DNA of 35,489 nucleotides from Curvibacter sp. GWA2_64_110 (lineage in GTDB: Bacteria; Pseudomonadota; Gammaproteobacteria; Burkholderiales; Burkholderiaceae_C), in assembly GCA_001797315.1 (NCBI GenBank), contig MGPC01000020.1, positions 1 to 35,489 on the forward strand, in the 5' to 3' direction. The notes under the pieces were generated by a model. That model was not told where the DNA came from. It did not search any database and was given only the letters and a program-made list of their open reading frames with translations. Shown piece by piece: positions 2,725 to 35,077 of the stretch (its first letter is position 1; each line of letters opens with the position of its first letter). The position numbers and the translations under genes are program-made.

Positions 2725-2728
<4 letters not shown>

Positions 2729-10090: not shown

Positions 10091-10507
10091 TCAGCCCTGC
10101 GGGCGGGGAAGCGGGCGCGGTTTGCCCTGATCGTCGATGGCGACGTAGGTCAGGCTGGCTTCCGTCACCTTGACGAACTGGCCCTGGGCGCGGAAGCGCT
10201 CGGCATAGACCTCGACCTTGACCGTCATGGAGGTGCGGCCCAGGCGGGTGAGTTTGGAATAAAAGGACAGGATGTCGCCGACCCGCACCGGCTGCTTGAA
10301 GATGAACTCGTTGACGGCCACCGTGGCCATGCGGCCGTCGGCGTAACGCGCCGGAATGACCGAGCCGGCCAGGTCGACCTGGGCCATGACCCAGCCGCCG
10401 AAGATGTCGCCATTGGCGTTGCAGTCGGCCGGCATCGGGATGACCTTGAGCACCAGCTCCTCATCGGAGGGCGGCTGGATCGGGGCGGTGCTTGAAATCT
10501 CGGACAT
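10091..10507 (-). CDS. acyl-CoA thioesterase, YciA-like
   Basis: This 138-residue hotdog protein has the segment NANGDIFGGWVMAQVDLAG and VNEFIFKQPVRVGD, matching the YciA/acyl-CoA hydrolase group, in which the Asp of GDIFGGW is catalytic. It would be a cytosolic thioesterase of broad acyl-CoA range. It converges on the PaaI-like gene and diverges from the ABC exporter. I chose the ATG at 10507; a TTG three codons earlier is also in frame. It is the third thioesterase in 3 kb. Confidence 0.9.
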   Translation of the reverse strand: MSEISSTAPIQPPSDEELVLKVIPMPADCNANGDIFGGWVMAQVDLAGSVIPARYADGRMATVAVNEFIFKQPVRVGDILSFYSKLTRLGRTSMTVKVEVYAERFRAQGQFVKVTEASLTYVAIDDQGKPRPLPRPQG

Positions 10508-10510
10508 GGG

Positions 10511-10545
10511 GGACAATCTTGGAACAACAACAACCTGGATTGTCC
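10511..10545. promoter_or_regulatory. inverted repeat between divergent thioesterase and ABC exporter genes
   Basis: GGACAATC (10511-10518) and GATTGTCC (10538-10545) are exact reverse complements 19 bases apart, inside a 41-base gap between the two divergent start codons. Each arm holds a -10-like GACAAT reading towards its own gene. It may be a pair of overlapping divergent promoters or a shared operator. No good -35 boxes are visible. Confidence 0.4.
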
Positions 10546-10548
10546 TCC

Positions 10549-16685: not shown

Positions 16686-16770
16686 GAGGCCCCCCTGAGC
16701 GGCTGCGCCGCTTCCCCCAGGGGGACGCCACCAGCAGCCCGGCGGAGCCGGTTCTGCGGCGACCTCCGTT
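16686..16770. repeat. dispersed stem-loop repeat (family 1, short form), intergenic
   Basis: The stretch contains CCCCC/GGGGG arms around AGCGGC-TGC-GCCGCT, then CCGGC-GGA-GCCGG. Positions 16717-16755 match 2767-2805 at 31 of 39 bases. It lies between gltL and pyrC and could double as a transcription terminator for the importer operon. Confidence 0.65.
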
Positions 16771-16793
16771 TGGGCGTCCTTCCTCATGTCTGG

Positions 16794-16805: not shown

Positions 16806-17837
16806 ATGACGCAAGAAATCACCCTCACCCGCCCGGATGACTGGCACCTGCACGTACGTGACGGCGAACCGCTGGCCACCGTGGTGCCGCACACGGCGGC
16901 CCAGTTCGGCCGCGCCATCATCATGCCCAACCTCAAGCCGCCGGTGACCACCGCGCAGCAGGCACTGGACTACAAGCGCCGCATCCAGGCTGCGGTGCCG
17001 GCGGGCCGGGCCTTCGAGCCGCTGATGACGCTCTACCTGACTGACAACCTGCCGCCGGACGAAATCAAGCGCGCCCGGGAGGCCGGTGTCGTGGCGGCCA
17101 AGCTCTACCCGGCGGGCGCCACCACCAACAGCGATGCCGGCGTGACCGATCTGCGCAAGACCTACAAGACGCTGGAGGCCATGCAGCGAGAGGGCTTGCT
17201 GCTGCTGGTGCACGGCGAGGTGACCGCGCCCGACATCGACCTGTTCGACCGCGAGGCGGTGTTCATCGAGCAGCAGCTCATGCCGCTGCGCCGCGATTTT
17301 CCCGAGCTGAAAATCGTGTTCGAGCACATCACCACGAAGGAGGCGGCGCAGTACGTGCAGGCCAGTGACGGCTATCTAGGTGCAACCATCACCGCGCACC
17401 ACCTGCTGTACAACCGCAACGCCATCTTCACCGGCGGCATCCGGCCGCACTACTACTGCCTGCCGGTGCTCAAGCGCGAAGTGCATCGCCAGGCCCTGGT
17501 GGCGGCGGCCACCAGCGGCAACCCCAAGTTCTTCCTTGGCACCGACAGCGCGCCGCACCCGGTGCACCTGAAGGAGCATGCCACCGGCTGCGCCGGCTGC
17601 TACACCGCGCATGCCGCGATCGAGATGTACGCCGAGGCCTTCGACCTGGCGGGTGCGCTTGACAAGCTCGAAGGCTTTGCCAGCTTTCATGGCGCCGATT
17701 TCTACGGTCTGCCGCGCAACCGCGGCACCATCACGCTGCGGCGCGAGTCGTGGACGCCGCCGGAGAGCTTCCCCTTCGGCCAGGCCGAGCTCAAGCCGCT
17801 GCGTTCCGGCGAGTCGCTGCCGTGGCGCATGGTCTAG
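16806..17837 (+). CDS. pyrC: dihydroorotase (pyrimidine biosynthesis)
   Basis: This 343-residue enzyme is a type II dihydroorotase like E. coli PyrC (348 residues). It interconverts carbamoyl aspartate and dihydroorotate in pyrimidine synthesis. All metal and catalytic residues are visible: His14 and His16 in DWHLHVRDG, the carboxylated Lys99 in [13 protein letters not shown], His136 in LVHGEV, His174 in EHITTKEA and Asp247 in GTDSAPH. The last two bases of its TAG stop already belong to the inverted-repeat element that follows. An upstream in-frame start at 16770 has no support. Confidence 0.96.
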
Positions 17838-18103
17838 GGTCTGTTCGCCCTGTTTTTTCATGGCGCGTTGCGGATCAAAAAGGTCATGCGGTAGGCGCGA
17901 AATGCTGCCGGAGTCTTCCTCCGGCAAGGCTTCGCAACGCCGCGCATGGCCTTTTTGGCCACAACCCGGAGGGAACGAGCTCCAAACCGCACCACTCGTT
18001 GTTGCACTTCTCGCCCAGACGGATAGTCTAGGCGTCGTCGTGCGCCTAGATTGGCGCGGTTTGGAGCTCGTTCGCGTATGAAAAAACAGGGTGAACAGAC
18101 CCT
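17836..18103. mobile_element. MITE-like element with inverted-repeat ends
   Basis: The outer arms 17836-17861 and 18078-18103 are reverse complements at 25 of 26 positions. Inside are a second arm pair (18-base arms near 17973 and 18056), an 8-bp hairpin TCTAGGCG/CGCCTAGA near 18027-18050, a stem TGCCGGAG/CTCCGGCA extended by GCGAA/TTCGC near 17899-17935, and a third pairing of two AAAAAGG/CCTTTTT blocks. It has no coding capacity. Left of it is CTAG, and its ends (GGTCTGTTC) look like those of IS5-type elements; that link is inference. It contains the end of the pyrC stop codon and the start codon of the DUF3025 gene. Confidence 0.7.
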
Positions 18104-22755: not shown

Positions 22756-23060
22756 ACATCAACCTGCGAAACAAAGGTCCGCTGCGTGCCGCTTGGCTGC
22801 TGCCCGTGTTGCTGAGTACGACGATGGTACTGGCGCAGCCCTCCGCTTGCGAGCAGGCCTGGGCCGAGTACAACGACTTCAAGACACGCAACGTGATGGA
22901 AGAGTCCCAGTACCCGCTGACGGTGCAGGGCGCCGCCGTGCGTGCCGCCTGCGGTGCCGAGGCCTTGCCGGCGCCGCCCTGGGCGGACACGCCGCCGCCG
23001 CCGCGTGTGCGCAAGCCCAAACCGCCTGCGCCGCCGCCCAATCCGCCGCGAAATCCTTAA
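22752..23060 (+). CDS. small exported proline-rich protein, unknown
   Basis: This 102-residue protein has a signal peptide, with a hydrophobic stretch AAWLLPVLLSTTMVLAQP near residues 12-29. A short Cys-containing mature part follows (CEQAWAEYNDFKTRN near 33-47, a second Cys near 67). The last 30 residues are mostly Pro with a few basic residues (PPPPRVRKPKPPAPPPNPP). I do not recognise a family. The ATG overlaps the stop of the GGDEF-EAL gene (ATGA) and AAGGAG lies ten bases upstream, so it is co-translated with the c-di-GMP enzyme. The stop overlaps the stop of the convergent FAD dehydrogenase gene. Confidence 0.75.
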   Translation: MNINLRNKGPLRAAWLLPVLLSTTMVLAQPSACEQAWAEYNDFKTRNVMEESQYPLTVQGAAVRAACGAEALPAPPWADTPPPPRVRKPKPPAPPPNPPRNP

Positions 23061-24880
23061 GTGGGTTGCAGCATGTCCAGTGCCACGGCCTCGGCCACCT
23101 TGATGCCGTCCACCCCGGCGGACAGAATGCCGCCGGCATAACCCGCACCTTCGCCGGCCGGATAGAGGCCGCGCACATTCAGGCTCTGCAAGTCCTCGCC
23201 GCGCGGGATGCGCAACGGTGACGAGGTGCGCGTTTCCACCCCGGTGAGCACGGCGTCCTTCATGTCGAAACCCTTGATCTTCTTGCCGAAGGCCGGCAGC
23301 GCTTCACGGATCGCTTCGATGGCGTAGCCCGGCAGGGCGTTGGCCAGGCTGCCCAGGTGCACGCCTGGTTTGTAGGAGGGCAACACGCTGCCGAAATCGG
23401 CGGACGGCTTGTCGGCGATGAAGTCGCCCACCAGCTGGCCCGGCGCCTCGTAGGTGCCGCCGCCCAACACATAGGCGTTGGCTTCCAGCTTGCGCTGCAG
23501 CACGATGCCGGCCAGCGGGTGCGGCTGGGGCGGCTGCTGGCGTGCCATGGCCGCGGCCTGTTGCGCGTAGCGTTCACCGTCCTCCGGGCCGAAGGCGGCC
23601 TGCCAGTCGGCGGCGTCGTCCACGCCATTCGGGTAGTCCACCGGCTCGATGCCGACCACGATGCCGGCGTTGGCGTTGCGTTCATTGCGTGAGTACTGGC
23701 TCATGCCGTTGGTCACCACGCGGCCGGGCTCCGAGGTGGCGGCCACCACCGTGCCGCCCGGGCACATGCAGAAGCTGTAGACCGCGCGGCCGTTTTGGGC
23801 GTGGTGCACCAGCTTGTAGTCGGCCGCCCCCAACAGCGGGTGGCCGGCGTGCTTGCCCCAGCGTGCGCGGTCGATCACGCTTTGCGGGTGCTCGATGCGA
23901 AAGCCCACCGAGAACGGCTTGGCCTGCATCGCCACGCCGCGGTCGAACAATTTGGCAAAGGTGTCGCGCGAGCTGTGGCCCAGCGCCATCACCACATGCG
24001 AGGCCTTCAATTCGTAGGGCGTGTTGGTGTTGAGGTCGAGCACGGTGAGGGCTTGCAGTTGTTTGCCCCTGGGGGTGTCGTCAATCCTCACATCGGTCAC
24101 GCGCTGCTGGAAGCGGATCTCGCCGCCGAGCGCAATGATCTGCTCGCGGATGCTCTCCACCACCTTCACCAGCTTGAAGGTGCCGATGTGCGGGTGGGCC
24201 TCCACCAGAATCTCCTGCGGCGCGCCAGCCTGCACGAACTCGTTCATCACCTTGCGGCCCAGGTGGCGCGGGTCCTTGATCTGGCTGTAGAGCTTGCCGT
24301 CGCTGAAGGTGCCGGCGCCGCCCTCGCCGAACTGCACGTTCGATTCCGGGTTCAGAACCTGCTTGCGCCACAGCCCCCAGGTGTCCTTGGTGCGCTGGCG
24401 CACCGTGGTGCCGCGCTCGATCACGATCGGCTTGAAACCCATCTGCGCCAGGATCAGCGCGGCAAAAATGCCGCAGGGGCCGAAGCCCACCACCACCGGG
24501 CGTTCCTTCAAGCCGGCCGGGGCCTGCGCCACCGGGTGGTAGACCAGGTCGGGCGAGGGGTCGATGTGCGGGTGGCCGGCAAATTTTTTCAGCAGGCTGG
24601 CTTCGAGCGTCGGGGCGTGATCGAGCGGCGACGGGCCGCCCCTAGCCGCGAGGGCCCCCTCGGGGGGCAGCGAGGACACGTCAGTGCCGAGCGTGGGGGC
24701 TATCTCCACGTCGACGATGTAGACCTGCAGCAGATCGGCCTTGCGCGCATCGAAGCTGCGCTTGTAGATGGTGAAGCGGCTAATCGCCTCGGGAGTGAGG
24801 CCCAGTGTCTGGGCAATGAGCGCGGGCAGCGCGTCGGCCGCATGCTCCAGCGGGAGCTTGAGTTCAGTCAGTCGAATCAT
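23057..24880 (-). CDS. FAD-dependent dehydrogenase, COG2509-like
   Basis: This 607-residue flavoprotein has an FAD-binding fold in its first third, VVVGFGPCGIFAALILAQMG near residues 128-147, followed by VIERG. Near residue 185 lies FGEGGAGTFSDGKLY, typical of the COG2509 group of uncharacterised NAD(P)/FAD-dependent oxidoreductases. The N-terminal 60 residues form the small domain usual for the group. Residues about 60-83 (TLGTDVSSLPPEGALAARGG) are encoded by a dispersed repeat. Substrate is unknown. It lies 58 bases after cysK on the same strand and may share its transcript. No clear ribosome site precedes the ATG. Confidence 0.88.
   Translation of the reverse strand: MIRLTELKLPLEHAADALPALIAQTLGLTPEAISRFTIYKRSFDARKADLLQVYIVDVEIAPTLGTDVSSLPPEGALAARGGPSPLDHAPTLEASLLKKFAGHPHIDPSPDLVYHPVAQAPAGLKERPVVVGFGPCGIFAALILAQMGFKPIVIERGTTVRQRTKDTWGLWRKQVLNPESNVQFGEGGAGTFSDGKLYSQIKDPRHLGRKVMNEFVQAGAPQEILVEAHPHIGTFKLVKVVESIREQIIALGGEIRFQQRVTDVRIDDTPRGKQLQALTVLDLNTNTPYELKASHVVMALGHSSRDTFAKLFDRGVAMQAKPFSVGFRIEHPQSVIDRARWGKHAGHPLLGAADYKLVHHAQNGRAVYSFCMCPGGTVVAATSEPGRVVTNGMSQYSRNERNANAGIVVGIEPVDYPNGVDDAADWQAAFGPEDGERYAQQAAAMARQQPPQPHPLAGIVLQRKLEANAYVLGGGTYEAPGQLVGDFIADKPSADFGSVLPSYKPGVHLGSLANALPGYAIEAIREALPAFGKKIKGFDMKDAVLTGVETRTSSPLRIPRGEDLQSLNVRGLYPAGEGAGYAGGILSAGVDGIKVAEAVALDMLQPT
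24633..24700. repeat. dispersed repeat (family 1, long form) inside FAD dehydrogenase gene
   Basis: The 68 bases match 34085-34152 in xerC at 62 positions by hand alignment, without gaps. The repeat is read on the minus strand here and on the plus strand in xerC, and neither reading has a stop. It includes GCCCCC-TC-GGGGGGC, a GC hairpin. Confidence 0.85.
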
Positions 24881-24938
24881 GGCTTGTGTTGATCAAGCAG
24901 AAGAAGCCGGCAATGATACGCGTCTGGAGCGCAAGATT

Positions 24939-25856
24939 TCACGCCGGCAGAAAGCCCTCGACTGACAGATAACGCTCCCCGGTGTCGTAGTTGAAGCCCA
25001 GCACGGTGGCGCCGGCCGGCAACTCCGGCAGTTTCTGCGCAATCGCTGCCAGCGTGGCGCCGGAGGAGATGCCGACCAGCATGCCTTCTTCGCAGGCGCT
25101 GCGCCGGCCCATCTCGCGCGCGGCTTCGGCGTCCACCGTGATGACTCCGTCGAGCAGGCGGGTGTCGAGGTTCTTCGGCACGAAACCGGCGCCGATGCCC
25201 TGGATCGGGTGCGGCGCGGCCACGCCGCCGGAGATGACTGGCGAGGCAGCGGGTTCCACCGCAAACACCTTGAGCCGGGGCCACTTGGCCTTGAGCACCT
25301 TGGCGCAACCCGTGAGGTGGCCGCCGGTGCCGACGCCGGTGATGAGCACGTCGATGCCCTCGGGGAAGTCCTGGATGATTTCCTGTGCCGTGGTGCGGGC
25401 ATGCACCTCGACGTTGGCCGGGTTCTCGAACTGCTGCGGCATCCAGGCGCCGGGGGTGCTGGCCACCAGCTCCTCGGCACGGGCAATCGCGCCTTTCATG
25501 CCTTTTTCGCGCGGCGTCAGGTCGAAGCTGGCACCATAGGCCAGCATCAGGCGACGGCGCTCGATGGACATGCTGTCGGGCATGACCAGCACCAGTTTGT
25601 AGCCCTTGACGGCGGCCACCATGGCCAGGCCGACGCCGGTGTTGCCGGAGGTCGGCTCGATGATGGTGCCGCCGGGCTTGAGCTGGCCGCGCGTTTCAGC
25701 ATCCTCGATCATGGCCAGGCCGATGCGGTCCTTGATGGAGCCGCCGGGGTTGCCGCGCTCGGACTTGATCCACACGTTGTGGCCGGGGCCGAACAGGCGG
25801 TTGATGCGCACGTGCGGCGTGTTGCCAATGGTCTGCAGGATGTTGTCGGCTTTCAT
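24939..25856 (-). CDS. cysK: cysteine synthase A (O-acetylserine sulfhydrylase)
   Basis: This 305-residue PLP enzyme makes cysteine from O-acetylserine and sulfide. The PLP lysine is Lys42 in [11 protein letters not shown], the substrate loop is PTSGNTG, the phosphate-binding loop is [10 protein letters not shown], and QGIGAGF and SSGATL are also present. Length matches CysK. GAAGGAG lies before the ATG. It is transcribed away from rnpB, with about 65 bases between its start and the RNA. A CysM-type enzyme is possible but the motifs fit CysK at least as well. Confidence 0.93.
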
Positions 25857-25911
25857 GGCGGGGCTCCTTCGGTCGGTTTTTTTAATCAGTGCAGGAATTG
25901 TCGCCGCAGAG

Positions 25912-25917
25912 GATAAT
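25912..25917 (+). promoter_or_regulatory. -10 box of rnpB
   Basis: GATAAT lies seven bases before the expected first base of RNase P RNA, which is the right distance for a sigma-70 promoter. No good -35 box is seen at 17 bases. Confidence 0.6.
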
Positions 25918-25922
25918 CAGTG

Positions 25923-26256
25923 CTGTGAAGCCCGCCAGACCGCCGCTGGTGCAATCTGGGAAACCAGGCACTGGAGGAACGTCCGGACTGCATAGGGCAG
26001 CGTAGCAGCTAACAGCTGTCCACCGCGAGGTGAGGATCAGAGCAACAGAGACGAGTCGCAGCGGGGCAACCTGCTGCGGGTGAAACGGGCAATCTCTACG
26101 CGCAGCAATACCAAGTAGGCACACGTTGACGGGGCCCCCGGAGTGTGCGGGTAGGTAGCACCGAGCCGGTGGGGCGACCCCCGGCCCAGATTAATGGCGG
26201 TCACACCGAGGGCAACCTCGGCGCACAGAATCCGGCTTATCGGCGGACTTCACACT
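25923..26256 (+). ncRNA. rnpB: RNase P RNA, bacterial type A
   Basis: The catalytic RNA of RNase P, which trims the 5' ends of tRNA precursors. Signature segments are GAGGAACGTCCGGACT with GCATAGGGCAG, AACAGAGACGAG, GAAACGGGCAATCTCTACG, AAGTAGGCACACG, and AGAATCCGGCTTAT near the 3' end. The ends are set by helix P1: GTGAAG and CCCGCC at the 5' side (from 25925) pair with GGCGG and CTTCAC at the 3' side (to about 26254). The exact ends may differ by a few bases. It converges on the Rrf2-type regulator gene, 35 bases away. Confidence 0.97.
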
Positions 26257-26290
26257 TATTCATGGCGCCGCACCGCGCGGCGCTGCGTTG

Positions 26291-26827
26291 TCAGCGGCCG
26301 GAGGTGAGCAGGCCGCCCAGCGCGAACACCGAGTTCGGTACCGTCGATTTCGACGGCGCCGGCTTGCGCTGCGCGAAGATGCCGCGCTTGCTGGCCGGCC
26401 GTGCTGTCACCTGTACCTCGCCCTTGGCGCGTTGCTCTTCGCTGAGCTGGTGCAGCGTGATGGAGCGCAAGTGTTCCATCATCTTGCTGCTCAGGCTGGT
26501 CCACAGTTCCTGTGTCAGCGCGCAGCCGGCCTCGCCGGCGCCGGTAGCCGCTTCCATTTGCAGGGCGCGCGCGCCTTCGACGGCAATGATGATGTCGGCC
26601 ACGCTGATGCTCTGGGCCTTACGGCCCAGCGTGTAACCGCCGCCGGGGCCGCGCGTGCTTTCTACCAGACCCTGTTGGCGCAGTTTGCTGAACATCTGTT
26701 CCAGGTAGGAGAGCGAAATCTGCAGGCGCTCGCCGATGGAGCCCAGCGGCACCGGCCCGGCCTGCTCGCGCAGGGCCAGGTCGATCATGGCGGCGACGGC
26801 AAAGCGGCTTTTGGTGCTTAAACGCAT
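26291..26827 (-). CDS. Rrf2/IscR-like transcriptional regulator lacking the Fe-S ligand set
   Basis: This 178-residue protein has the Rrf2 winged helix of IscR: MRLSTKSRFAVAAMIDLAL, the recognition segment ISLSYLEQMFSKLR and the wing GPGGGYTLGR. In E. coli IscR, three Cys and one His bind a 2Fe-2S cluster. Here only one Cys (Cys102) is present in the whole protein and the His of LTHALW is replaced in LTQELW, so a normal cluster cannot form. No isc genes adjoin. The C-terminus carries an extra basic tail of about 25 residues. AAAGGA lies before ATG 26827. The target genes are unknown; it is divergent from nhaR. Confidence 0.9.
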   Translation of the reverse strand: MRLSTKSRFAVAAMIDLALREQAGPVPLGSIGERLQISLSYLEQMFSKLRQQGLVESTRGPGGGYTLGRKAQSISVADIIIAVEGARALQMEAATGAGEAGCALTQELWTSLSSKMMEHLRSITLHQLSEEQRAKGEVQVTARPASKRGIFAQRKPAPSKSTVPNSVFALGGLLTSGR

Positions 26828-26927
26828 GGCAGATCCTTTCAGCAATCTTGAACGGACGAAAAGTCCGAACACCCCTACTGTAGACCTTCTATGATTTTGC
26901 GTAAATTCGTATTTTTGGTTTAATCAC

Positions 26928-26942
26928 TTCGAAAAAATCGAA
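26928..26942. promoter_or_regulatory. candidate LysR-type operator between the Rrf2 gene and nhaR
   Basis: TTCGA-AAAAA-TCGAA is a perfect 5-bp dyad that also fits the T-N11-A rule of LysR-type sites. It lies 14 bases before the nhaR start, in an unusually AT-rich 129-base divergent region, so autoregulation by NhaR is plausible. Confidence 0.4.
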
Positions 26943-26956
26943 TCAATGGATTTGAC

Positions 26957-27853
26957 ATGAATTTCAAGCATTTGCATTATTTCTGGGTCACGGCACGCGC
27001 AGGTGGTGTCATGCGCGCAGGTGAGCAGTTACACACAACGCCGCAGACGCTGTCGGGTCAGATCAAGCTGCTGGAGGAGCGGCTGGGGTGCCGGCTGTTT
27101 CGCAAGAGCGGCCGCCAGCTGGAGCTGACCGACGACGGCCGCCTGGCGCTGGGTTATGCCGACGACATCTTTACCCTCGGCGCCGAGCTGGAGTCGGCCC
27201 TGCGCCAGCCGCGCAGCGGCGTGCGCGCGCTCGACTTCCGGGTCGGCGTGGCCGATTCGGTGGCCAAGTCGGTGGCCTACCGGCTGCTGGAGCCGGCCAT
27301 GAGCATGGACGAGCCGGTGCGGCTGATCGGCAGCGAAGGCAAGTTCCCCGACCTGCTGGCGCAGCTGGCACTGCAACGGCTCGACCTGGTGATTGCCGAT
27401 GAGCCGCTGACGCGCCGCATCAGCGTCAAGGCCTTCAACCATGCACTGGGCACCTCGCCCATGAGCTTCTTCTGTGCCCCGGCGCTGAAAAGCCGGCTGC
27501 AGGGTGAGTTTCCGCAGTGCCTGCATGACGCGCCGATGCTGATCCAGGGCGCCGCTTCCTCGGTGCGCCAGCAGCTCGACGGCTGGCTGGCGCGCCAGCA
27601 AATCCAGCCGCGCATCGTGGGCGAGTTCGACGACGGCGCATTGATGACGGCTTTCGGCCGCGAAGGACGCGGTGTCTTCATGTCGCCCAGCGTGCTGGAG
27701 GCCGAGACGGTGGCGCACTATGGCGTGGAGGTCATCGGTCGCAGCGACGAGCTGGTGGAGGAGTTCTTCGCCGTCTCGGTGGAGCGGCGCATCACGCACC
27801 CGGCGGTGGCGGCCATCACGCAGGCGGCACGTGGCCGGCTGTTCAGCGCTTGA
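26957..27853 (+). CDS. nhaR: LysR family regulator NhaR
   Basis: This 298-residue protein matches NhaR, the sodium-responsive activator of E. coli. Shared features are the opening NFKHLHYFWVTARAGGVMRAGEQLH (in two parts), TPQTLSGQIKLLEERL in the helix-turn-helix, VGVADS near residue 97, GEFDDGALMTAFG near 218, and HPAVAAI near the C-terminus. In E. coli NhaR activates the sodium/proton antiporter nhaA; no antiporter gene adjoins here, so the targets must be elsewhere. The segment GVMRAGEQL replaces the more usual GSVVGAAEAL. Two hairpins follow the stop. Confidence 0.9.
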   Translation: MNFKHLHYFWVTARAGGVMRAGEQLHTTPQTLSGQIKLLEERLGCRLFRKSGRQLELTDDGRLALGYADDIFTLGAELESALRQPRSGVRALDFRVGVADSVAKSVAYRLLEPAMSMDEPVRLIGSEGKFPDLLAQLALQRLDLVIADEPLTRRISVKAFNHALGTSPMSFFCAPALKSRLQGEFPQCLHDAPMLIQGAASSVRQQLDGWLARQQIQPRIVGEFDDGALMTAFGREGRGVFMSPSVLEAETVAHYGVEVIGRSDELVEEFFAVSVERRITHPAVAAITQAARGRLFSA

Positions 27854-27857
27854 AGAG

Positions 27858-27889
27858 GTTTCGCTGCCGGGCCCGCCCCCAGGCGAAAC
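27858..27889. terminator. hairpin after nhaR
   Basis: GTTTCGC (27858-27864) pairs with GCGAAAC (27883-27889) around a GC-rich loop that can itself fold (GGGC/GCCC). No T run follows, so it may be part of a longer 3' structure rather than a terminator on its own. Confidence 0.45.
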
Positions 27890-27898
27890 GCGGCCCCA

Positions 27899-27938
27899 GG
27901 CCCCCGTGCAGCGCAGGGCAAGCCTGCGTGGGGGCTTT
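27899..27938. terminator. terminator between convergent nhaR and pseudouridine synthase genes
   Basis: GCCCCC (27900-27905) and CGCAGG (27912-27917) pair with GGGGGC (27930-27935) and CCTGCG (27923-27928) around GCAAG, with a bulge on the left arm, followed by TTT. It can serve the plus-strand nhaR and lies three bases from the end of the minus-strand gene. Confidence 0.7.
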
Positions 27939-27940
27939 AT

Positions 27941-28717
27941 TCAGAAGCGTTCGTACGGCATCAGGTAGCGCCATTGCCCTTCAGGCAGGCCGGCCAGCGG
28001 CAGGCGTCCGATGCGGATGCGCTTGATGGCGAGGATCTCCAGGCCGAGTGCCGAACACATGTGCGCGATCTGGCCGGGCCAATAACCCTTGAGGGCAAAG
28101 CGCAGGCCGGTGACATCACCCGTCTGCCGGCTCACGCTGACGCGGGCCGGCAGCATGGCGCGGCCTTCGATCACCGGCGCACGGTTCAACTGTTGCAGCG
28201 CCTCCGGCGACACCGTGCCGCGCACGTCGACCATGACTTCGTGCTCGACCAGGGCCGCATCTTCCACCAGCTTGCGTTTCACGTGCCAGTCCTGCGTGAA
28301 GACCAGCAGGCCGCTGGCACCGGTCTCCAGTGGCGTGGCAACCTCCAGGCCGCGCAGGTGGCGCTGCAGCAGGCGGATGCCCGAGCGGTCGCTGCTGTGG
28401 CGACGCTCGGCGCGCAGCAGGTCGATGGCCGCATGTTTCCCGCCAGCCGGGGCGTTGTCGACGGTGCCCGCTGGCTTGTGCAGCACGATGGTGATGGGGG
28501 TCGGGGCGGCTGCGGGCTGGCGCAGCGCGGCGGGATCGAGTTCGACGGTCTGGTCCAGCACCCGGAACTGGGGTACCTCCACCACCTCGCCGTTGACGCG
28601 CACCCAGCCGCCTTCGATGTAGAGCTCGGCCTCGCGGCGCGAGCAGCCGGCCAGTTCGGCGACGCGGCGCGCCAGGCGCACGCCTGCGGCGGCTGAAGGA
28701 TGGGAAGAAAGGGTCAT
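27941..28717 (-). CDS. RsuA/RluB-like pseudouridine synthase with altered active site
   Basis: This 258-residue protein has an N-terminal S4 RNA-binding domain (about residues 12-60, RLARRVAELAGCSRREAELYI followed by GGWVRVNG) and a pseudouridine-synthase-like domain. Where the family has RLDxxTSGLL, with the catalytic Asp, this protein has PLETGASGLLVFTQD, so the Asp is replaced by Glu and the preceding Arg by Pro. The rest of the fold is present to the C-terminal RIRIGRLPLAGLPEGQWRYL. It is either a divergent enzyme or a non-catalytic RNA-binding protein. ATG 28717 is four bases after the upstream Nudix-MBL gene, so the two form an operon. Confidence 0.85.
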   Translation of the reverse strand: MTLSSHPSAAAGVRLARRVAELAGCSRREAELYIEGGWVRVNGEVVEVPQFRVLDQTVELDPAALRQPAAAPTPITIVLHKPAGTVDNAPAGGKHAAIDLLRAERRHSSDRSGIRLLQRHLRGLEVATPLETGASGLLVFTQDWHVKRKLVEDAALVEHEVMVDVRGTVSPEALQQLNRAPVIEGRAMLPARVSVSRQTGDVTGLRFALKGYWPGQIAHMCSALGLEILAIKRIRIGRLPLAGLPEGQWRYLMPYERF

Positions 28718-28721
28718 GAGG

Positions 28722-30401
28722 TCAGTCGTTGCCGGGCGGCAGGGCGCGCAGGCGTTCCACGTGGGCCAGCAGCGAACGCTTGGCCACCGGCCAGATGCGT
28801 TCGGGCACATCGTCGTAGGCCTGCGCCACCCACTCGTCCAGCGTGCCTTCGGGCAGGGCCTGCATCACACGCAGGATCTTGGCTTCGCGCTGCAGCCGGT
28901 GGGCGCGCAGTTGTGTTATGGCCTGCCGGGCCGCGCCCAGCACGTGGCCGTGCGCCGGCAGGATGAAATCAATGCCGTGCTCGGCACAGGCGTCATCGAG
29001 CGCGTCGAGCGAGTCGAGGTAGGCCGTCATGTCGCCGTCCGGCGGGTCGATCACCGTGGTGCTGCCGTTGAGGATGTGGTCGCCCGAGAACAGCAGGCCG
29101 TCTTCCACCAGCACCAGGCACAGATGGTTGGCAGCATGGCCGGGCGTGTGGATCACCTGCAGGGTATGGGTGATTTCGGGCTCCAGGCCTTGTGAAATAA
29201 GCGTCAACAGCTCCTGATGTTGTAGCGCCCGGTCGGGCGTGAAGTGGCTGGCAGCGCGTGCGGTGGGCGCCGAGGGCAGGCCCAGCACCGGCGGCACGCC
29301 ATGGCCTTGGCCGGCGTTGAGGCACAGTGCCTGCAGCGGGCGCGCACCCGGCGAATGGTCGGCATGCGAGTGGGTGCAGACGATCATGCGGATGTCGCCG
29401 CCGGCGGCACGCCACAGGCGCTCCAGATGCTCGGGGTCGTCCGGGCCCGGGTCGATGACGATGTAGCCGGTGCGCGGGTCGCCCACCAGGTAGCTGTTGG
29501 TGCCGGGGCCGGTCATCACGCCGGGATTGGCGGCGGTCAGGCGCTGCACGTTCTTCAGCAGCGGCACCGGCTGCTCGTTCTGCCAGTCGAGAGGGTGCAG
29601 CATCTGGCCGTCGGGGCAGACCAGGGCCAGCTCGCCGAAAGGTGCGTCGCCTTCCATGTAGCGCGCTTCACGCCCCATCAACAGGCCGGCGCGCGGGCAG
29701 CTGGTCCACAGCGGTTCTTCGGTTTCGGCGCAGGCCTGCAGCACGGTCGCCACGTCCGGGAAGTGCAGCAGCCGTTCCAGCGTGCGCACGGTGGGGAAGA
29801 TCATGAAGAAGCTGCCTTCGCGGTGGTGTGCCAGCGCATCCGCCGGGCGCACCCACACCGGGTCGAACTGCTCGCGCTCGTCGGCCACCGGGGTCTGCTT
29901 GTGCGGCATGCGCGCCACCAGGAAGGGCACGTCGAAGCGGCGCGGCAGATCGCGGTCGGTGATCCAGCGCGCCAGCACGAAGACCTCGTCCGCCGCCAGC
30001 GTCAAGCCTTGTGCCTGGCATTGCGGCAGCAGCGCGGCGTGGCGGTCGAGCCGGGCCAGGTCGCTGGCGTCAGCCGCTGTGCCGTCGGCGCGGCGCGCCA
30101 GCAGAATGCCGAGTTCCTCGAAGCTTTCGCGGATGGCGGCAATGGCTTGCGTCAGGTGTTCGTCGCGCTGGCCGGGGCGACGGCGTGCCAATGCATGGGC
30201 TTGCGCATCGGCGGTATCGATGCCACCGCCGGGAAAGACGTAGGCGCCGGGCGCAAAGCTGGCGCTCAGCGAGCGGCGCGTCATCAACACTTCCAGGCCC
30301 TGCGGCCCGTCGCGCAGCAGGAGCACGGTGGCGGCATGCAAGGGGACAACGGGTTCACGCTGGGCGTGCAGGAGCTGGTTCAGGCGCGGCATGGACTGCA
30401 T
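28722..30401 (-). CDS. Nudix hydrolase / metallo-beta-lactamase fusion
   Basis: This 559-residue protein joins two hydrolases. The Nudix domain (about 20-280) has GAYVFPGGGID at 52-62 and the Nudix helix RESFEELGILL at 91-101, with a long insert between them as in NUDT19-like proteins. The metallo-beta-lactamase domain (about 285-490) has HSHADH (344-349), His422, Asp441 and HGH (484-486), and the C-terminal winged helix of LACTB2-type enzymes follows (about 505-555). LACTB2 is an endoribonuclease, so a role in nucleotide or RNA turnover is plausible. Residues 392-408 are encoded by a dispersed repeat. ATG 30392 is an alternative start, with CACAAT just upstream as a possible leaderless -10. 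Confidence 0.88.
   Translation of the reverse strand: MQSMPRLNQLLHAQREPVVPLHAATVLLLRDGPQGLEVLMTRRSLSASFAPGAYVFPGGGIDTADAQAHALARRRPGQRDEHLTQAIAAIRESFEELGILLARRADGTAADASDLARLDRHAALLPQCQAQGLTLAADEVFVLARWITDRDLPRRFDVPFLVARMPHKQTPVADEREQFDPVWVRPADALAHHREGSFFMIFPTVRTLERLLHFPDVATVLQACAETEEPLWTSCPRAGLLMGREARYMEGDAPFGELALVCPDGQMLHPLDWQNEQPVPLLKNVQRLTAANPGVMTGPGTNSYLVGDPRTGYIVIDPGPDDPEHLERLWRAAGGDIRMIVCTHSHADHSPGARPLQALCLNAGQGHGVPPVLGLPSAPTARAASHFTPDRALQHQELLTLISQGLEPEITHTLQVIHTPGHAANHLCLVLVEDGLLFSGDHILNGSTTVIDPPDGDMTAYLDSLDALDDACAEHGIDFILPAHGHVLGAARQAITQLRAHRLQREAKILRVMQALPEGTLDEWVAQAYDDVPERIWPVAKRSLLAHVERLRALPPGND
29179..29226. repeat. dispersed repeat (family 2) inside the Nudix-MBL gene
   Basis: These 48 bases fit GCG-N4-CAGCT-N10-TAGC with the same spacing as the copies at 12417 and 32903. 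The 22 bases before GCG match those of the 12417 copy at 16 positions. It is translated on the minus strand as residues about 392-408 of the metallo-beta-lactamase domain, where no catalytic residue lies. Confidence 0.7.
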
Positions 30402-30544
30402 TGTGCCGCCAAGCGGTCTCACCTGGCTGCCGCAGCGGCGCGCCAAGGCAGGCTCTAGGCGTAAACCCGATTGGTAATTTCCGCAGCGTGCAGAACGGAT
30501 GGCGCGCGGATACTTCCACCACAACACGACCCGAGGAGACAAGC

Positions 30545-31528
30545 ATGACCTTGAAACGACACGCCCTGCGCACACTGGGCATTCTGGCCGCGGCCACCGC
30601 GCTGGCCGCGCCCCTGGGCGCTCTGGCCCAGGCCTGGCCGGGCAAACAGCCGATCAAGCTGGTGGCGGTGTTTCCGCCCGGCGGCTCGGTGGACCAGGTT
30701 TCGCGCCTGCTGGCGCCCCATCTGCAGCAGGAGCTGGGGCAGAACATCATCGTCGAGAACAAGGGCGGCGCCTCCGGCTCCATCGGCGCCGCGGCCGTGG
30801 CGGCCGCGCCGGCCGACGGCTACACTTTCGCCGCCGTGTTCGACACCCACGGCGTCAACCCGAGCCTGATACCGAATCTGCCCTTTGATTCGAGGAAGGA
30901 CCTGAGCACCGTCATCGTCATCGGCACCTCGCCCATGGTGCTGGCCACCCATGCCTCGTCCGAATTCAAGACCTTTGCCGACGTGGTGGCGGCCGCCAGG
31001 CAGGCCAAGGGCGCGAGCTTCGGCTCCATCGGCTCGGGCAGCCTGGGCCACCTGGCCATGGCGCTGCTGGGCAAGAACAACGGTCTGAACTTCACGCACA
31101 TCCCCTACAAGGGCGGCGGCCCGCTGATGAACGACGCCGTGGCCGGGCACGTGCCGCTGGCAATCGGCTCGGTGTTCGTCGTCAAGCCGCACGTGGACAG
31201 CAAGCGCATGCGTGCCCTGGCGGTCACCACCTCGAAGCGCGCACCGCAGCTGCCCGACGTGCCGACAATTGCCGAAAGCGGCTTCGCCGGTTTCGATGCG
31301 CCGGCCTGGTGGGCCATCCTGGCACCGGCCAAGACCCCGCCGGAGGTGGTGGCACGCATGAACGAGGCCATCAACAAGGTCATGAAGAACCCCGACGTGG
31401 CCAAGCGGCTCGAAGCCCAGGGCATCGACGTGGTCGGTGGCACACCCCAGGCCGGGCAGGCTTTCATCGAGCGCCAGATGGACATCTGGGCCAAGGTGGT
31501 GAAAGACAACAACATCAAGCCGGACTGA
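30545..31528 (+). CDS. Bug/TctC-type tripartite tricarboxylate transporter receptor
   Basis: This 327-residue periplasmic binding protein has a signal peptide (RTLGILAAATALAAPLGALA, cut before QAWPG). The mature part has the Bug-family pattern: PIKLVAVFPPGGSVDQVSR, VENKGGASGSIGA and GYTFAAV near the N-terminus. Bug proteins bind small carboxylates and are very numerous in Burkholderiales, usually without a neighbouring transporter, as here. The ligand cannot be read from sequence. GAGGAG precedes the ATG at 30545; the frame stays open far upstream but that part is antisense to the Nudix-MBL gene. A perfect hairpin follows the stop. Confidence 0.92.
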   Translation: MTLKRHALRTLGILAAATALAAPLGALAQAWPGKQPIKLVAVFPPGGSVDQVSRLLAPHLQQELGQNIIVENKGGASGSIGAAAVAAAPADGYTFAAVFDTHGVNPSLIPNLPFDSRKDLSTVIVIGTSPMVLATHASSEFKTFADVVAAARQAKGASFGSIGSGSLGHLAMALLGKNNGLNFTHIPYKGGGPLMNDAVAGHVPLAIGSVFVVKPHVDSKRMRALAVTTSKRAPQLPDVPTIAESGFAGFDAPAWWAILAPAKTPPEVVARMNEAINKVMKNPDVAKRLEAQGIDVVGGTPQAGQAFIERQMDIWAKVVKDNNIKPD

Positions 31529-31536
31529 GTCGCAAA

Positions 31537-31573
31537 CTCCCATGAACGAGGGATGATCCCCAGTTCATGGGAG
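31537..31573. terminator. long perfect hairpin after the Bug receptor gene
   Basis: CTCCCATGAAC (31537-31547) and GTTCATGGGAG (31563-31573) are an exact 11-bp stem, and the enclosed bases hold a second stem GGGAT/ATCCC. No T run follows. It may end or stabilise the receptor transcript. Confidence 0.55.
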
Positions 31574-31606
31574 GCCAAAACGCCGGCTTTGCTCTATGGT
31601 TGAGCC

Positions 31607-31849
31607 ATGTGGTTTTCTGAAGCGAAACTCACCATGGCTTCCTCGCCTCGCCCCGCGTCGTTCGTCCGTGACTGGTTCGCGCGCCATCCGAAGTGGCTGG
31701 CCGGGCTCCAGTACACCGTCTCCACGCTGGTCATCGGGCTGCTGCTGGCAGGGGCCACCGTGCTGGTGACCCGGCTGGAGGCGCAACTGCCCTCGCCATT
31801 CAAGCTGGCGGCTGCGGTGCCGGCGCTGGCTTTCAGTGCTCTGGGGTAA
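31607..31849 (+). CDS. small membrane protein, unknown
   Basis: This 80-residue ORF encodes a basic N-terminus (WFARHPKWLAG near 23-33) and one clear membrane helix (YTVSTLVIGLLLAGATVLV at about 36-54), and ends in a second hydrophobic stretch. I do not recognise a family. Its last 17 bases overlap the convergent carboxymuconolactone-decarboxylase-type gene. ATG 31634 is an alternative start. No good ribosome site is present, so it may not be translated, although the helix preceded by a positive cluster is not what chance antisense frames look like. Confidence 0.45.
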   Translation: MWFSEAKLTMASSPRPASFVRDWFARHPKWLAGLQYTVSTLVIGLLLAGATVLVTRLEAQLPSPFKLAAAVPALAFSALG

Positions 31850-32378
31850 TGCCCAGCGCCACCAGAAAACGCGCCACCATGTTGTAGGTGGCGATGGCGC
31901 TGGTCAGCTCCACGATCTGTGTCTCGTCGAAATGCTGGCGCAGGGCATCGAAGACCGCGTCGCTTACCTGCACGTCCAGCGTCATCTGCGCCGCATAGCG
32001 GATCACCAACTGCTCCACCTCGCCCAGCGACGGGTCGCCCGGGATGCCGCGCGGGTCGGCCTGGACGAACGCGTTGAGCGCATCAAGCTGGGCCTGGGTG
32101 CCGCCGGCGGCCAGGAAGTCGGGCGCATGGTGGTGGTACTCGTAGTGCGCACCGGTGAGCAGCGCCACGGTGCAGATGCCGAGTTCACGCAAACGGCGGC
32201 TGGTCGGCAGCTCGGTGCGCACGGCCTTGAGGTAGGTGTTCCAGCCGCGCGCCAGCGGCTCGCTCCACAGCAGGGCTTTGTCGAGGTTGAGCAGGGCGCC
32301 GCCGCGGCGCGCCAGGATGGCGTCCACCAGATCCTGCGGTTGGGCTTTGCGTTCGGGGGTCCAGTCGGGCAGTCGCAT
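31833..32378 (-). CDS. carboxymuconolactone decarboxylase family protein
   Basis: This 181-residue all-helical protein belongs to the CMD/AhpD-like fold. The segment GAHYEYHHHAPDFLAAGG near residues 76-93 matches the conserved YE-xx-H-xxx-A pattern. The Cys pair of AhpD-type peroxidase partners is absent; the only Cys is in GICTVAL. So a disulfide reductase role is unlikely and the true substrate is unknown; relatives include gamma-carboxymuconolactone decarboxylase. It is divergent from dapF, 81 bases away. Confidence 0.85.
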   Translation of the reverse strand: MRLPDWTPERKAQPQDLVDAILARRGGALLNLDKALLWSEPLARGWNTYLKAVRTELPTSRRLRELGICTVALLTGAHYEYHHHAPDFLAAGGTQAQLDALNAFVQADPRGIPGDPSLGEVEQLVIRYAAQMTLDVQVSDAVFDALRQHFDETQIVELTSAIATYNMVARFLVALGITPEH

Positions 32379-32445
32379 GTCGGTTGTCTCTGAGGGGTTG
32401 AAGTAACAGGCTGTCAGTCCTCAAGGATAAGGGCAGAAATCAGCG

Positions 32446-32451
32446 GATAAT
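32446..32451 (+). promoter_or_regulatory. -10-like box of a predicted leaderless dapF
   Basis: GATAAT ends eight bases before the ATG at 32460 with no Shine-Dalgarno, predicting a transcript that starts within two bases of the start codon. No clear -35 is visible. Confidence 0.5.
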
Positions 32452-32459
32452 TTGCCGAC

Positions 32460-33347
32460 ATGCGAATTCGCTTTACCAAAATGCAGGGGGCTGGCAACGA
32501 CTTCATCGTGCTGGACGAGACGCGCGGGCGGCTCGGTCTCACGACGGCTCAGTACCGCTGGCTGGCCGACCGCCACTTCGGTGTCGGCGCCGACCAGATC
32601 CTGACCGTGCGGCCGGCACCCATGCCCGGCATCGACTTCGAGTACGTGATCCACAACGCTGACGGCGCCGAGGTCGAGCAGTGCGGCAACGGTGCGCGCT
32701 GCTTTGCGCGTTTTGTGCACGACCAGGGGCTGACCCCGAAGGACACCATCCGGGTCAAGACCCTGGGCGGCGTGATCGAGCCGCACCTGACTGCGGACGG
32801 CCGCGTGACGGTGGACATGGGCGCGCCGGTGTTCGATCTGCCGCGCATCCCCTTCGACGCCACCGGCCTGACGCCCGAGCCCAGCGATTCATGGCAAAAA
32901 TGGCCGCTGGACCTTGCCGCCAATGCGCAGACAGCTACTGTTTTTGTAGCGATCGTGTCGATGGGCAACCCGCACGCGGTGCAGGTGGTGGACGATGTGG
33001 AACACGCGCCGGTGCTGACGCAGGGCCTGCTGATCGAACACCACCCGCGCTTCCCGCGCCGTGTCAACGCCGGTTTCATGCAGGTGCTGGACCGCACGCA
33101 CATCAAGCTGCGCGTCTGGGAGCGTGGCGCCGGCGAGACGCTGGCCTGCGGCACCGGGGCCTGCGCCGCGGTGGTGGCGGGCATCCGCCTCGGGCTGCTG
33201 GATGCGCGCGTCGACGTGCAGACCCACGGCGGCGTGCTGACGATTGAATGGGCCGGCGAGCGCAACGGGGTTGCCGCGCCGGTGATGATGACGGGACCGG
33301 CCACCACGGTCTTCCAGGGCGAAATAGAACTACCTGAACTGACATGA
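32460..33347 (+). CDS. dapF: diaminopimelate epimerase
   Basis: This 295-residue enzyme converts LL- to meso-diaminopimelate for lysine and peptidoglycan synthesis. It has the opening [13 protein letters not shown] and both catalytic cysteines, Cys75 in QCGNGARC and Cys230 in [10 protein letters not shown]. It is about 20 residues longer than the E. coli enzyme (274). Part of the extra length, near residues 148-164 before VSMGNPH, is encoded by a dispersed repeat. It is the first gene of dapF–DUF484–xerC, the same order as in E. coli apart from a small gene. Its stop overlaps the next ATG. Confidence 0.96.
32903..32950. repeat. dispersed repeat (family 2) inside dapF
   Basis: The unit fits GCG-N4-CAGCT-N10-TAGC and contains the dyad GCTAC-N7-GTAGC (32934-32950). 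It may begin a little earlier, near 32890. In frame it encodes the stretch around [10 protein letters not shown] in DapF, between the two conserved halves of the enzyme. Confidence 0.65.
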
Positions 33348-34030
33348 GCAACCAATACCTGAACCCGATGACCGAGGACGACATTGCCGACTACCTGGGC
33401 AACAATCCCGAGTTCTTCGAGCGCCACGCCGAGCTGCTGGCCGCGGTGCACCTGACCAGCCCGCACAACAAGCGTGCGGTCAGCCTGCAGGAGCGTCAGG
33501 CCGAAATGCTGCGCGACAAGATCCGCCTGCTCGAAGCCCGCATCATGGACATGATCCGTCACGGCAACGACAACCTGGCGCTGCTGGACAAGCTGCTGAT
33601 CTGGGCGCGCGACCTGTTCCTGACGCTGGATTTCACCAATCTGCCCGGCACCATCGCCAGCTCGATCCAGTCGCAGTTTGCGGTGCCGCAGGTGGCCATC
33701 AAGGTCTGGGATGTGGCGCCCGAATTCGCCAGCGCCGCCTTCGCGCAGAACGTCAGCGATGACGCCAAGGTGTTCGCCTCCTCGCTGCGTGAGCCTTTCT
33801 GCGGCGTCAACTCCGGCTTCGAGGCCGCCAGCTGGCTGGACGAGCCGGCGCAGGCCGCTTCGCTGGCGCTGTTGCCGCTGCGTGCCGCGGCCAGCGGCAA
33901 CACCACGCCGGCCTTCGGCATGCTGGTGCTGGCTTCGCCCGACGCCCAGCGCTTTGCCAGCACCATGGGCACCGACTTCCTGGAGCGCATTGCCGAACTG
34001 GCCAGCGCAGCGCTCTCGCCGCTGAGGTAA
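33344..34030 (+). CDS. DUF484 family protein
   Basis: This 228-residue protein matches DUF484. Its N-terminal segment [25 protein letters not shown] is followed by a short coiled coil ([19 protein letters not shown] near 47-65) and a GAF-like C-terminal domain. The function is unknown. It is almost always found between dapF and xerC in proteobacteria, as here, with a four-base overlap with dapF and three bases to xerC. Confidence 0.93.
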
Positions 34031-34033
34031 ACC

Positions 34034-35077
34034 GTGGCGCCGGACCCGGTCCAGGCAGGTGACGATGAGGCGATGAGCGCCGCCGGGCCGTCCCAAGGCG
34101 CGAAGGCCCCCTCGGGGGGCAGCGAGGACACGGAAGTGCCGAGCGTGGGGGCCCTGATCGAGCGTTACCTGGAACACGTCCGGGTCGAGAAACGGCTGGC
34201 GCAGCGCACGGTCGAGCTTTACGCGCTTGATTTGCAGAAACTCAGCGACTTCGCCGCCCAGGTGCCGGTGGCGCTGACGCATGTGCAGAACGCCCACATC
34301 CGGCGCTGGGTGGCGCAGATGCACAGTGGCGGGCGCAGCGGCCGCGGCATTGCGCTCATCCTCTCGGGCTGGCGCGGCTTTTATGCCTGGCTCGGACGCG
34401 AGGGGCGGGTGGCCAGCAACCCGGTGCAGGACGTGCGCTCGCCGAAGGCGGCCAAACCCTTGCCGAAAGCGCTCAGCGTGGACGACGCGGTGCAACTGGC
34501 CGCCTTTCGCAACGACGAGGCCAATCCCTGGCTGGAAGCGCGCGACGCCGCCATGGTGGAGCTGCTCTACAGCAGCGGCCTGCGCGTGGCCGAACTGACC
34601 GGGCTCGATGTGGCGGCCAGTGCGGCGGCGCGCGGCTGGATTGACCTGCCATCGGCAGAGGCCCATGTGCTGGGCAAAGGCAGCAAGCGCCGCAGCGTAC
34701 CGGTGGGGCGCGAGGCGCTCACCGCCCTCTCCAGATGGTTGACCTTGCGGGCCCAGATGGGGGTGCCGGCAGAACAGACAGCGCTTTTCATCGGCCGCAA
34801 CGGCACGCGCCTGACGGCGCAGTCAATCTGGCAGCGCCTCAAGCGCCGCAGCCAGCAGGCAGGTCTGGCCACGCCGGTGCATCCGCACATGCTGCGCCAC
34901 TCCTTTGCCAGCCATGTACTGCAGTCCAGCAGCGATCTGCGCGCGGTGCAGGAACTGCTGGGCCACGCCAACATCAGCACCACGCAGGTCTACACCCGGC
35001 TGGACTTCCAGCACCTGGCCAAGGCCTACGATGCAGCGCATCCGCGGGCTCGCAACAAGGGGCCGTCCAAGCCCTGA
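34034..35077 (+). CDS. xerC: tyrosine recombinase XerC
   Basis: This 347-residue recombinase resolves chromosome dimers at dif together with XerD. All catalytic residues are present: Arg184 in SSGLRVAEL, Lys215 in GKGSK, His285 and Arg288 in HMLRH, His311 in LLGHANISTTQ and the nucleophile Tyr320. The core-binding domain starts near residue 38. The first 37 residues are extra compared with typical XerC (about 300) and are largely encoded by a dispersed repeat. GTG 34034 has GAGG six bases upstream; ATG 34073, which begins the repeat-encoded part, is an alternative. It ends the dapF operon. Confidence 0.95.
   Translation: MAPDPVQAGDDEAMSAAGPSQGAKAPSGGSEDTEVPSVGALIERYLEHVRVEKRLAQRTVELYALDLQKLSDFAAQVPVALTHVQNAHIRRWVAQMHSGGRSGRGIALILSGWRGFYAWLGREGRVASNPVQDVRSPKAAKPLPKALSVDDAVQLAAFRNDEANPWLEARDAAMVELLYSSGLRVAELTGLDVAASAAARGWIDLPSAEAHVLGKGSKRRSVPVGREALTALSRWLTLRAQMGVPAEQTALFIGRNGTRLTAQSIWQRLKRRSQQAGLATPVHPHMLRHSFASHVLQSSSDLRAVQELLGHANISTTQVYTRLDFQHLAKAYDAAHPRARNKGPSKP
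34076..34152. repeat. dispersed repeat (family 1, long form) at the xerC 5' end
   Basis: Positions 34085-34152 match 24633-24700 at 62 of 68 bases, and 34076-34113 match 11650-11687 at 35 of 38. It contains the hairpin GCCCCC-TC-GGGGGGC. In frame it gives SAAGPSQGAKAPSGGSEDT, a disordered-looking extension ahead of the XerC core-binding domain. Confidence 0.85.

Follow-up and report, generated by a model that had tools for sequence, protein, structure and literature searches.

Introduction

Rickettsia is the best-known host of palindromic repeats that sit in frame within genes; elsewhere there are cases of repetitive extragenic palindromic sequences (REPs). Two accounts describe the Rickettsia palindromic elements (RPEs) as short stem-loop repeats that occupy intergenic DNA and also, in frame, conserved protein-coding genes (PMC2229807, PMC10969869), with a length of 105-146 bp and terminal inverted repeats (PMC2229807). 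REPs, according to PMC3733652, lie near gene ends, where some provide the stop codon. In several species they also occur inside open reading frames (ORFs), such as those of uvrA, ligase, helicase, and tRNA synthetases, many of the in-ORF ones encoding 20-30 residues. Correia (107 bp), ERIC, and YPAL are treated in PMC2229807 as bacterial miniature inverted-repeat transposable elements (MITEs) with ORFs fused to other ORFs. To these, a family from another lineage is added here, a repeat of about 84 nt of which two matching segments lie on contig MGPC01000020.1 of Curvibacter sp. GWA2_64_110; the whole 35,489 nt contig is referred to as the window, and the genome to which it belongs (G000) as the own genome.

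The element is probably a non-autonomous, hairpin-forming repeat that has been copied often, mostly outside genes and also into genes, where it is kept if it lies in frame.

The Matching Segments in the Window

The sequence-only reading of the window had described a gap-free 68-bp match between 24633-24700 and 34085-34152, translated on opposite strands in two conserved genes, and had proposed a mobile or copied unit, open in both directions by selection or preadaptation, as a source of new peptide segments. The match (62 of 68 positions identical) and both translations, the plus reading in XerC and the minus reading in a dehydrogenase, were reproduced, and the core 25-mer, present twice in the window, averaged 0.00 occurrences over 100 shuffled sequences. 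Although the 68-bp unit is real, it is neither the full unit nor confined to two copies: a repeat search of the window extends the aligned block to 78 nt at 90% identity, the covariance model to 24617-24702 and 34069-34154, and a third, half copy is present at 11647-11684. The segments and the genes that carry them are as follows.

24617 to 24702, plus strand: full-length element copy A, within the FAD dehydrogenase gene and in antisense to it (APTLGTDVSSLPPEGALAARGG); 90.1 bits (E 4.3e-14) with covariance model R1
34069 to 34154, plus strand: element copy B, full length, read in sense at the 5' end of xerC (AAGPSQGAKAPSGGSEDTEVPSVGA); covariance model R1, 89.4 bits
11647 to 11684, plus strand: half copy, left hairpin only, in the MsbA-like ABC transporter gene upstream of the ATPase part (LSAAGPSQGANAP)
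23057 to 24880, minus strand: FAD-dependent dehydrogenase gene, 607 aa, carrying copy A; ORF, 26-protein alignment, and Pfam FAD-depend_C on a fragment
34034 to 35077, plus strand: xerC, 347 aa counted from the GTG at 34034; TIGR02224 (XerC), 333.8 bits, slightly below the cut-off of 335.15
10492 to 12411, plus strand: MsbA-like ABC transporter gene with the half copy; ORF and NCBIfam
24604 to 24616, plus strand: near-copy of the right end of the element (CGAGCGTCGGGGC), 12/13 identical to 24688-24700, 84 nt apart

The half copy, recovered by the repeat search and by BLAST (match 11649-11703, E 1.1e-11), is read in the same sense frame as copy B. NCBIfam gave no match to the dehydrogenase (23057-24880) at 1e-10, and alignment with relatives reveals copy A as a clear internal insertion; the adjoining near-copy CGAGCGTCGGGGC possibly represents target homology or a duplication. 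The XerC profile begins at residue 43, behind copy B, which places that copy in an N-terminal extension. Its translation is uncertain because three alternative in-frame starts exist, two of them inside the element (GTG at 34034, ATG at 34073 within the element, and GTG at 34145 at its right end), and the copy may be partly or wholly untranslated.

Empty Sites in Relatives

Orthologues from distant betaproteobacteria carrying the same protein segments, or a genome holding no other copies, had been named as observations that would refute the proposal. Neither refutation succeeded: the relatives turned out to be mostly empty at these sites and the own genome to hold 35 places with the element. 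For the dehydrogenase, the best 80 of 588 candidates from a contig scan, all named records, were compared, and 79 of these 80 lack the segment of copy A, their sequence running on without a break (L032, for instance, has VDIEVSPALETS). In the sole exception, from Polaromonas (L079), an insert occupies the corresponding position in the same antisense frame, which has its left junction in common with the window copy and whose second half is, by eye, a different repeat. The XerC comparison was made on the 32 of 80 named loci that contain the start of the conserved core; the element pattern was found within 150 nt upstream of that core in 0 of the 32, and the native XerC N-termini differ in length among relatives. 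With absence in 79/80 dehydrogenases and 32/32 testable XerC loci, an ancestral protein segment was rejected.

Six further genes of the own genome were compared across nine genomes, giving 51 segments. Inserts are present in two of eight segments each for CobQ, RecQ, and RibF, in 4/9 for LigA, in 2/10 for HrpA (the second lying in an extra HrpA copy of G006), and in 3/8 for PurL, thus in 15 of 51 altogether, with 36 lacking one; RecQ and LigA each contain one possible remnant beyond these counts. All 51 segments have a length divisible by three. An insert of 84 nt is seen in RibF, in LigA of G000 and G005, and in one PurL; the others range from 60 to about 117 nt. When remnants were scored as absent and the extra HrpA of G006 was excluded, the nine-genome tree required two changes each for CobQ, RecQ, and RibF, three for LigA, one for HrpA, and three for PurL. 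On account of these numbers the presence of the insert is patchy, which in general fits repeated insertion, loss, or recombination alike. The idea of a source of new peptide segments is borne out at the level of predicted proteins by the lack of the segment in 79/80, 36/51, and 32/32 comparisons; such proteins would gain a spare segment of about 28 aa that could be read from either strand.

Copy Number and Distribution

The own genome, which is 3.40 Mb in 41 contigs and 95.6% complete, gave 30 BLAST matches (a single long copy accounts for two of them, one per half) and 33 covariance-model matches; together with two partial copies found by BLAST alone, the model matches make up the 35 places, in and outside genes. 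Dispersal and copying, on either strand, are thereby seen for the proposed mobile or copied unit, whereas its mobility is what we infer. The relatives G003, G008, and G019 have 35, 24, and 32 copies, respectively. In a BLAST search of 60 genomes, 34 were positive, namely the own genome, 22/25 others of the genus, 9/10 genomes from other genera of the family, and 2/24 of the order, both of these last with weak matches. According to the covariance model, the element is present in 22/26 genomes of the genus at 4 to 44 copies each, the richest being G006 (44 copies), a genome with 5% contamination; those free of it are G015, G020, and G023 (1.7-1.9 Mb) and G017 (3.0 Mb). The small genomes of the genus, G015, G020, and G023 together with G001 and G011 (2.6 Mb), have 0 or 4 copies, and the larger ones 7 to 44, except G017 with 0. 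Tandem arrays occur at G031:C30:7876-8206 and G001:C29:694-852 (84-nt spacing) and at G006:C255:1264-1433 (about 83 nt). Judging by the named matches, the host range is the Comamonadaceae. Phages and plasmids were rejected as vehicles of spread, since the element matched no phage record and, among 72,556 plasmid records, only 5.

The own genome, G003, G008, and G019 together contribute 126 copies, whose context was assigned by scoring the codon usage of the flanks, with the element itself excluded. In-gene copies with an open frame number 45, distributed as 11/35 in the own genome, 17/35 in G003, 12/24 in G008, and 5/32 in G019. The other 81 fall outside this class; among them are terminal fusions, the copy in xerC, and three frame-shifted copies of G003 discussed below. 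Eighteen copies lie between coding flanks of the same strand, and 12 of these begin <=8 nt from the upstream stop codon, which in four of the 12 is the element's own TGA.

Reading Frames and Charge

The 45 in-gene copies collapse to 34 sites, 22 read in sense and 12 in antisense. Frames at the centre of the element were assigned from an alignment anchor, and two of the 126 copies without the anchor were dropped, leaving 79 non-coding copies for comparison. At the centre, the sense sites use the PSGGS frame in 18/22 and the PLGGQ frame in 4/22, with none in the third; the antisense sites use the PPEGA frame in 10/12 and another in 2/12, again with none in the third. Among the 79 non-coding copies, the three sense frames are open in 63, 39, and 67 cases and the antisense frames in 56, 63, and 67, and from the open-frame share alone the preferred frame would be expected at 0.40 (sense) and 0.36 (antisense). 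The excess over these non-coding frequencies has a one-sided p of 6.5e-5 in sense and 1.1e-3 in antisense, both of which need multiplication by three because the preferred frame was chosen after inspection of the data.

In the two preferred frames the mean net charge of coding copies is +0.8 and +0.5, compared with 4.4 to 6.0 in the other four; for non-coding copies the values are +1.5 and +1.0 in those same frames versus 3.2 to 5.2. The preferred frame on each strand is the least charged one. The simple reading is that inserts yielding strongly basic peptides get lost, the alternatives being a bias of insertion phase or a codon preference. The claimed design for openness in both directions did not hold up: each frame is open in 39 to 67 of the 79 non-coding copies, and since such copies are often open in all six frames, bidirectional openness follows mostly from the high G+C. 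What appears to be under selection is the choice of frame, one per strand.

Conserved Hairpins

A structure model of three hairpins was written by hand from an alignment (A2) of 52 full-length copies, comprising 22 from the own genome, 28 from genomes of relatives, and two from named records. In copy B the hairpins are placed as follows.

34074 to 34104, plus strand: left hairpin; outer stem formed by 34074-34081 and 34097-34104, inner stem by 34085-34087 and 34092-34094
34106 to 34120, plus strand: central hairpin, GCCCCC-TCG-GGGGGC, 97.1% of cells paired
34122 to 34144, plus strand: right hairpin, changes on both sides in 4/7 pairs, 65.7% of cells paired (MAFFT register)

The covariation score of the same 52 copies is 0.228 against a shuffle mean of 0.074, a value reached by 0/500 shuffles. 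Kinship among sequences can lift covariation above shuffles in the absence of structure; this artefact is argued against by the structure slid by 1-3 columns, which scores at most 0.072. Covariation is strong in the left outer stem, where 8/8 pairs vary on both sides, while the central hairpin is nearly invariant and affords no such test. The low pairing of the right hairpin is, we would guess, due in part to two length types that occupy different columns. Pairing of the left arm is conserved inside genes (5.91/8 pairs against 4.13 in re-paired controls, 44/45 copies used) and outside them (6.17/8 against 4.36, 78/81 copies used), and in neither set did any of 2000 re-pairings reach the observed value. 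The structural claim rests on covariation. The folding energies of single copies are ordinary: five single-strand folds computed for the copies in the window were not beyond their shuffles. A known Rfam RNA family was rejected, as no covariance model matched over the element at the gathering threshold, nor at E <= 1 for 34000-34220, and no T-run terminator was found at 33900-34300.

Target Genes

Fragments around the 34 sites were searched against NCBIfam and Pfam; several scores lie below the curated cut-offs because fragments were the queries. NCBIfam named LigA, CobQ (two sites), RibF, RecQ, HrpA, PurL, HemW, GlnD, UvrA, MoaE, a formate-dehydrogenase-type protein, an MsbA-like transporter, AroA-cytidylate kinase, a GlcD-like protein, and an RND permease. 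Pfam contributed two more UvrA-type sites, the Phe-tRNA synthetase PheS, an aminotransferase, a formyltransferase (presumably Fmt), a second EPSP-synthase site, two molybdopterin-dehydrogenase-type sites, an ABC ATPase, an alpha/beta hydrolase, HerA-like helicase sites, proline dehydrogenase, a T2SSE ATPase, a second helicase, a fatty acid hydroxylase, and an M16 peptidase-type protein. One target (L236) had no match in NCBIfam or Pfam.

Proposed Mechanism and Competing Explanations

As the copied, non-autonomous repeat that we favour, the element would be copied repeatedly, mostly outside genes and often at the stop codon of the upstream gene. In-gene copies would be retained when the insert preserves the frame and encodes a low-charge peptide rich in Pro/Gly/Ser/Ala, which is probably disordered, and either orientation could survive because each strand offers one low-charge frame. 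Since its pairing is conserved, the unit may be handled as a folded single strand, which a trans-acting machinery would recognise or copy. The dehydrogenase target, which resembles the right end of the element, and the 84-nt tandem arrays hint at insertion beside sequences resembling that right end. A more ambitious version is unlikely, namely a portable 28-codon cassette outside Rickettsia that is constrained thrice (by its hairpins, a benign sense frame, and a benign antisense frame) and recurrently enters the same loops of housekeeping proteins at right-end-like targets as an ongoing, two-stranded supplier of disordered segments.

The own genome contains a single Y1 transposase (Y1_Tnp) gene, L031 at G000:C36:71138-71464, which is bordered, by eye, by inverted GGGGTCAGATTCCAATTA repeats. 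Y1 transposase genes are present in 25/26 genomes of the genus, mostly singly, and some of these genomes are element-free. Since the element flanks neither the own Y1 gene nor those of eight relatives, a REP/RAYT pairing (RAYT, REP-associated tyrosine transposase) was rejected.

Several points weigh against the favoured account. The class "internal" demanded an open frame by construction, and only four genomes, all of the same genus, supplied the 34 sites, with contexts taken from a codon-usage score and not from annotation. An earlier, peptide-based tally gave 8/12 antisense sites (p 0.012), the difference between 8 and 10 being two degenerate copies placed by the alignment anchor. The frames at the ends vary, the left reading GPSQ or GRPK and the right SVGA, AWG, or ERGG, so the frame rule is firm only at the centre of the element. 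Movement and translation are both predictions from sequence, and no mobilising enzyme was found; the element is absent within 4 kb around the own Y1 transposase gene and at eight relatives' Y1 transposase genes. Lastly, three more G003 copies, excluded from the 45, are flanked by different frames of apparently single genes, which we take to be ValS-, UvrA-, and HPPD-like. In reading orientation they are:

L279, 1629 to 1715: element copy
L280, 1628 to 1712: element copy
L287, 1626 to 1700: element copy

Each contains a run of six or more C, and G003 is a single-contig genome; broken genes, homopolymer errors of sequencing or assembly, or recoding may account for them. The fourth G003 copy examined (L250) resembles an ordinary junction of two genes.

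That same-site inserts across lineages go back to a single ancient insertion, which homologous recombination between relatives then spread or removed, and not to repeated insertion, is a view on which belief and doubt are nearly balanced, doubt having the slight edge. The RecQ inserts of G000 and G006 have an unusual shifted centre in common, and the 2, 2, 2, 3, 1, and 3 tree changes are attainable by losses or transfer as well. The window and L079 dehydrogenase inserts, however, share their left junction and differ in their second halves (by eye), and they look independent because the second half in L079 belongs to a different repeat. Somewhat more doubtful, though still a serious contender, is the proposal that the element is primarily a REP-like RNA or DNA structure of gene ends, under selection at those ends and serving the mRNA 3' end, transcript stability, or supercoiling, with in-gene copies as tolerated by-products that have no role. 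The 81 of 126 copies not inside an open gene, the 12 of 18 that begin close to a stop codon (four using the TGA of the element), and the covarying stem are what such a role would lead one to expect. It receives no help from the missing T-run terminator at 33900-34300 or from the ordinary folding energy of the five window-copy folds, and it leaves the frame preference unexplained, even though it is compatible with a repeat that is also copied into genes.

Bypass or removal of the inserts before or during translation, by hopping or in an intron-like manner, so that no peptide results, is highly improbable. Hairpin-forming inserts in well-conserved genes and the three G003 copies with flanks in different frames would suit it, but a skipped insert would make length modulo 3, open frame, and preferred frame irrelevant, whereas all 51 segments keep their length modulo 3 and frame use is skewed. 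Coincidence between two G+C-rich, low-complexity coding segments, for which the high G+C and the openness of most frames might speak, has practically no likelihood left; a chance match was rejected on the 35 genomic places, the expectation of 0.00 for the core 25-mer, and the covariation.

Other Features of the Window

A second, different palindromic repeat (core CCCGGCAAAGCCGGTT) occurs at 2755-2830, within the N-terminal, signal-peptide-like part of the ORF 2725-3240, and at 16714-16775, and has 40 BLAST matches in the own genome; by eye, the L079 dehydrogenase holds a hybrid of the element and this repeat. Nested inverted repeats at 17836-18103 pair 17836-17861 with 18078-18103 (96%) and 17973-17997 with 18049-18073 (92%), and may be MITE-like or regulatory. 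The window also has two RNA matches.

25927-26255, plus strand: RNase P RNA class A, Rfam match
5707-5781, plus strand: sX9, an sRNA family of Xanthomonas, matched with 49.4 bits against a cut-off of 44

Comparison with Known Systems

A literature search of open-licence papers found no description of the element, nor of its DNA or peptide strings, and what is reported here is a known kind of phenomenon in an apparently undescribed repeat family. With 4-44 copies in 22/26 genomes of the genus, how such repeats move and whether the added segments are neutral or used become testable.

Among known repeats, the RPEs and the REPs inside ORFs come nearest. Like the RPEs of PMC2229807 and PMC10969869, the element is a short stem-loop repeat that is intergenic and also lies in frame in conserved genes. 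Two traits of an RPE-like functional class were found, dispersed multicopy occurrence (126 copies in four genomes, 45 in genes) and in-frame insertion with empty sites in relatives, the three frame-shifted G003 copies being exceptions. It is set apart from the RPEs, as described in PMC2229807, by its length of about 84 nt, its apparent lack of a terminal inverted repeat (none seen by eye in the 52-copy alignment), and its occurrence in Comamonadaceae. In common with the MITEs Correia, ERIC, and YPAL of the same source, it is a small non-autonomous repeat in ORF fusions. Terminal inverted repeats and a TA duplication were not seen here, and a direct repeat of 12/13 positions, 84 nt apart, lies at the dehydrogenase copy.

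As PMC3733652 describes for the GTAG/CGTC REPs, the element is a palindromic repeat that lies near gene ends, sometimes supplies the stop codon, and also occurs inside ORFs. It differs in having no linked RAYT and no tag, a GTAG or CGTC tetranucleotide at the palindrome end being absent, by eye, from the 52-copy alignment. Shared with the in-ORF REPs of that source are the target genes uvrA, DNA ligase, RNA helicases, and tRNA synthetases. This overlap with REP-bearing genes of unrelated bacteria (PMC3733652), noted by gene names, suggests that there may be a common rule of tolerance or targeting.

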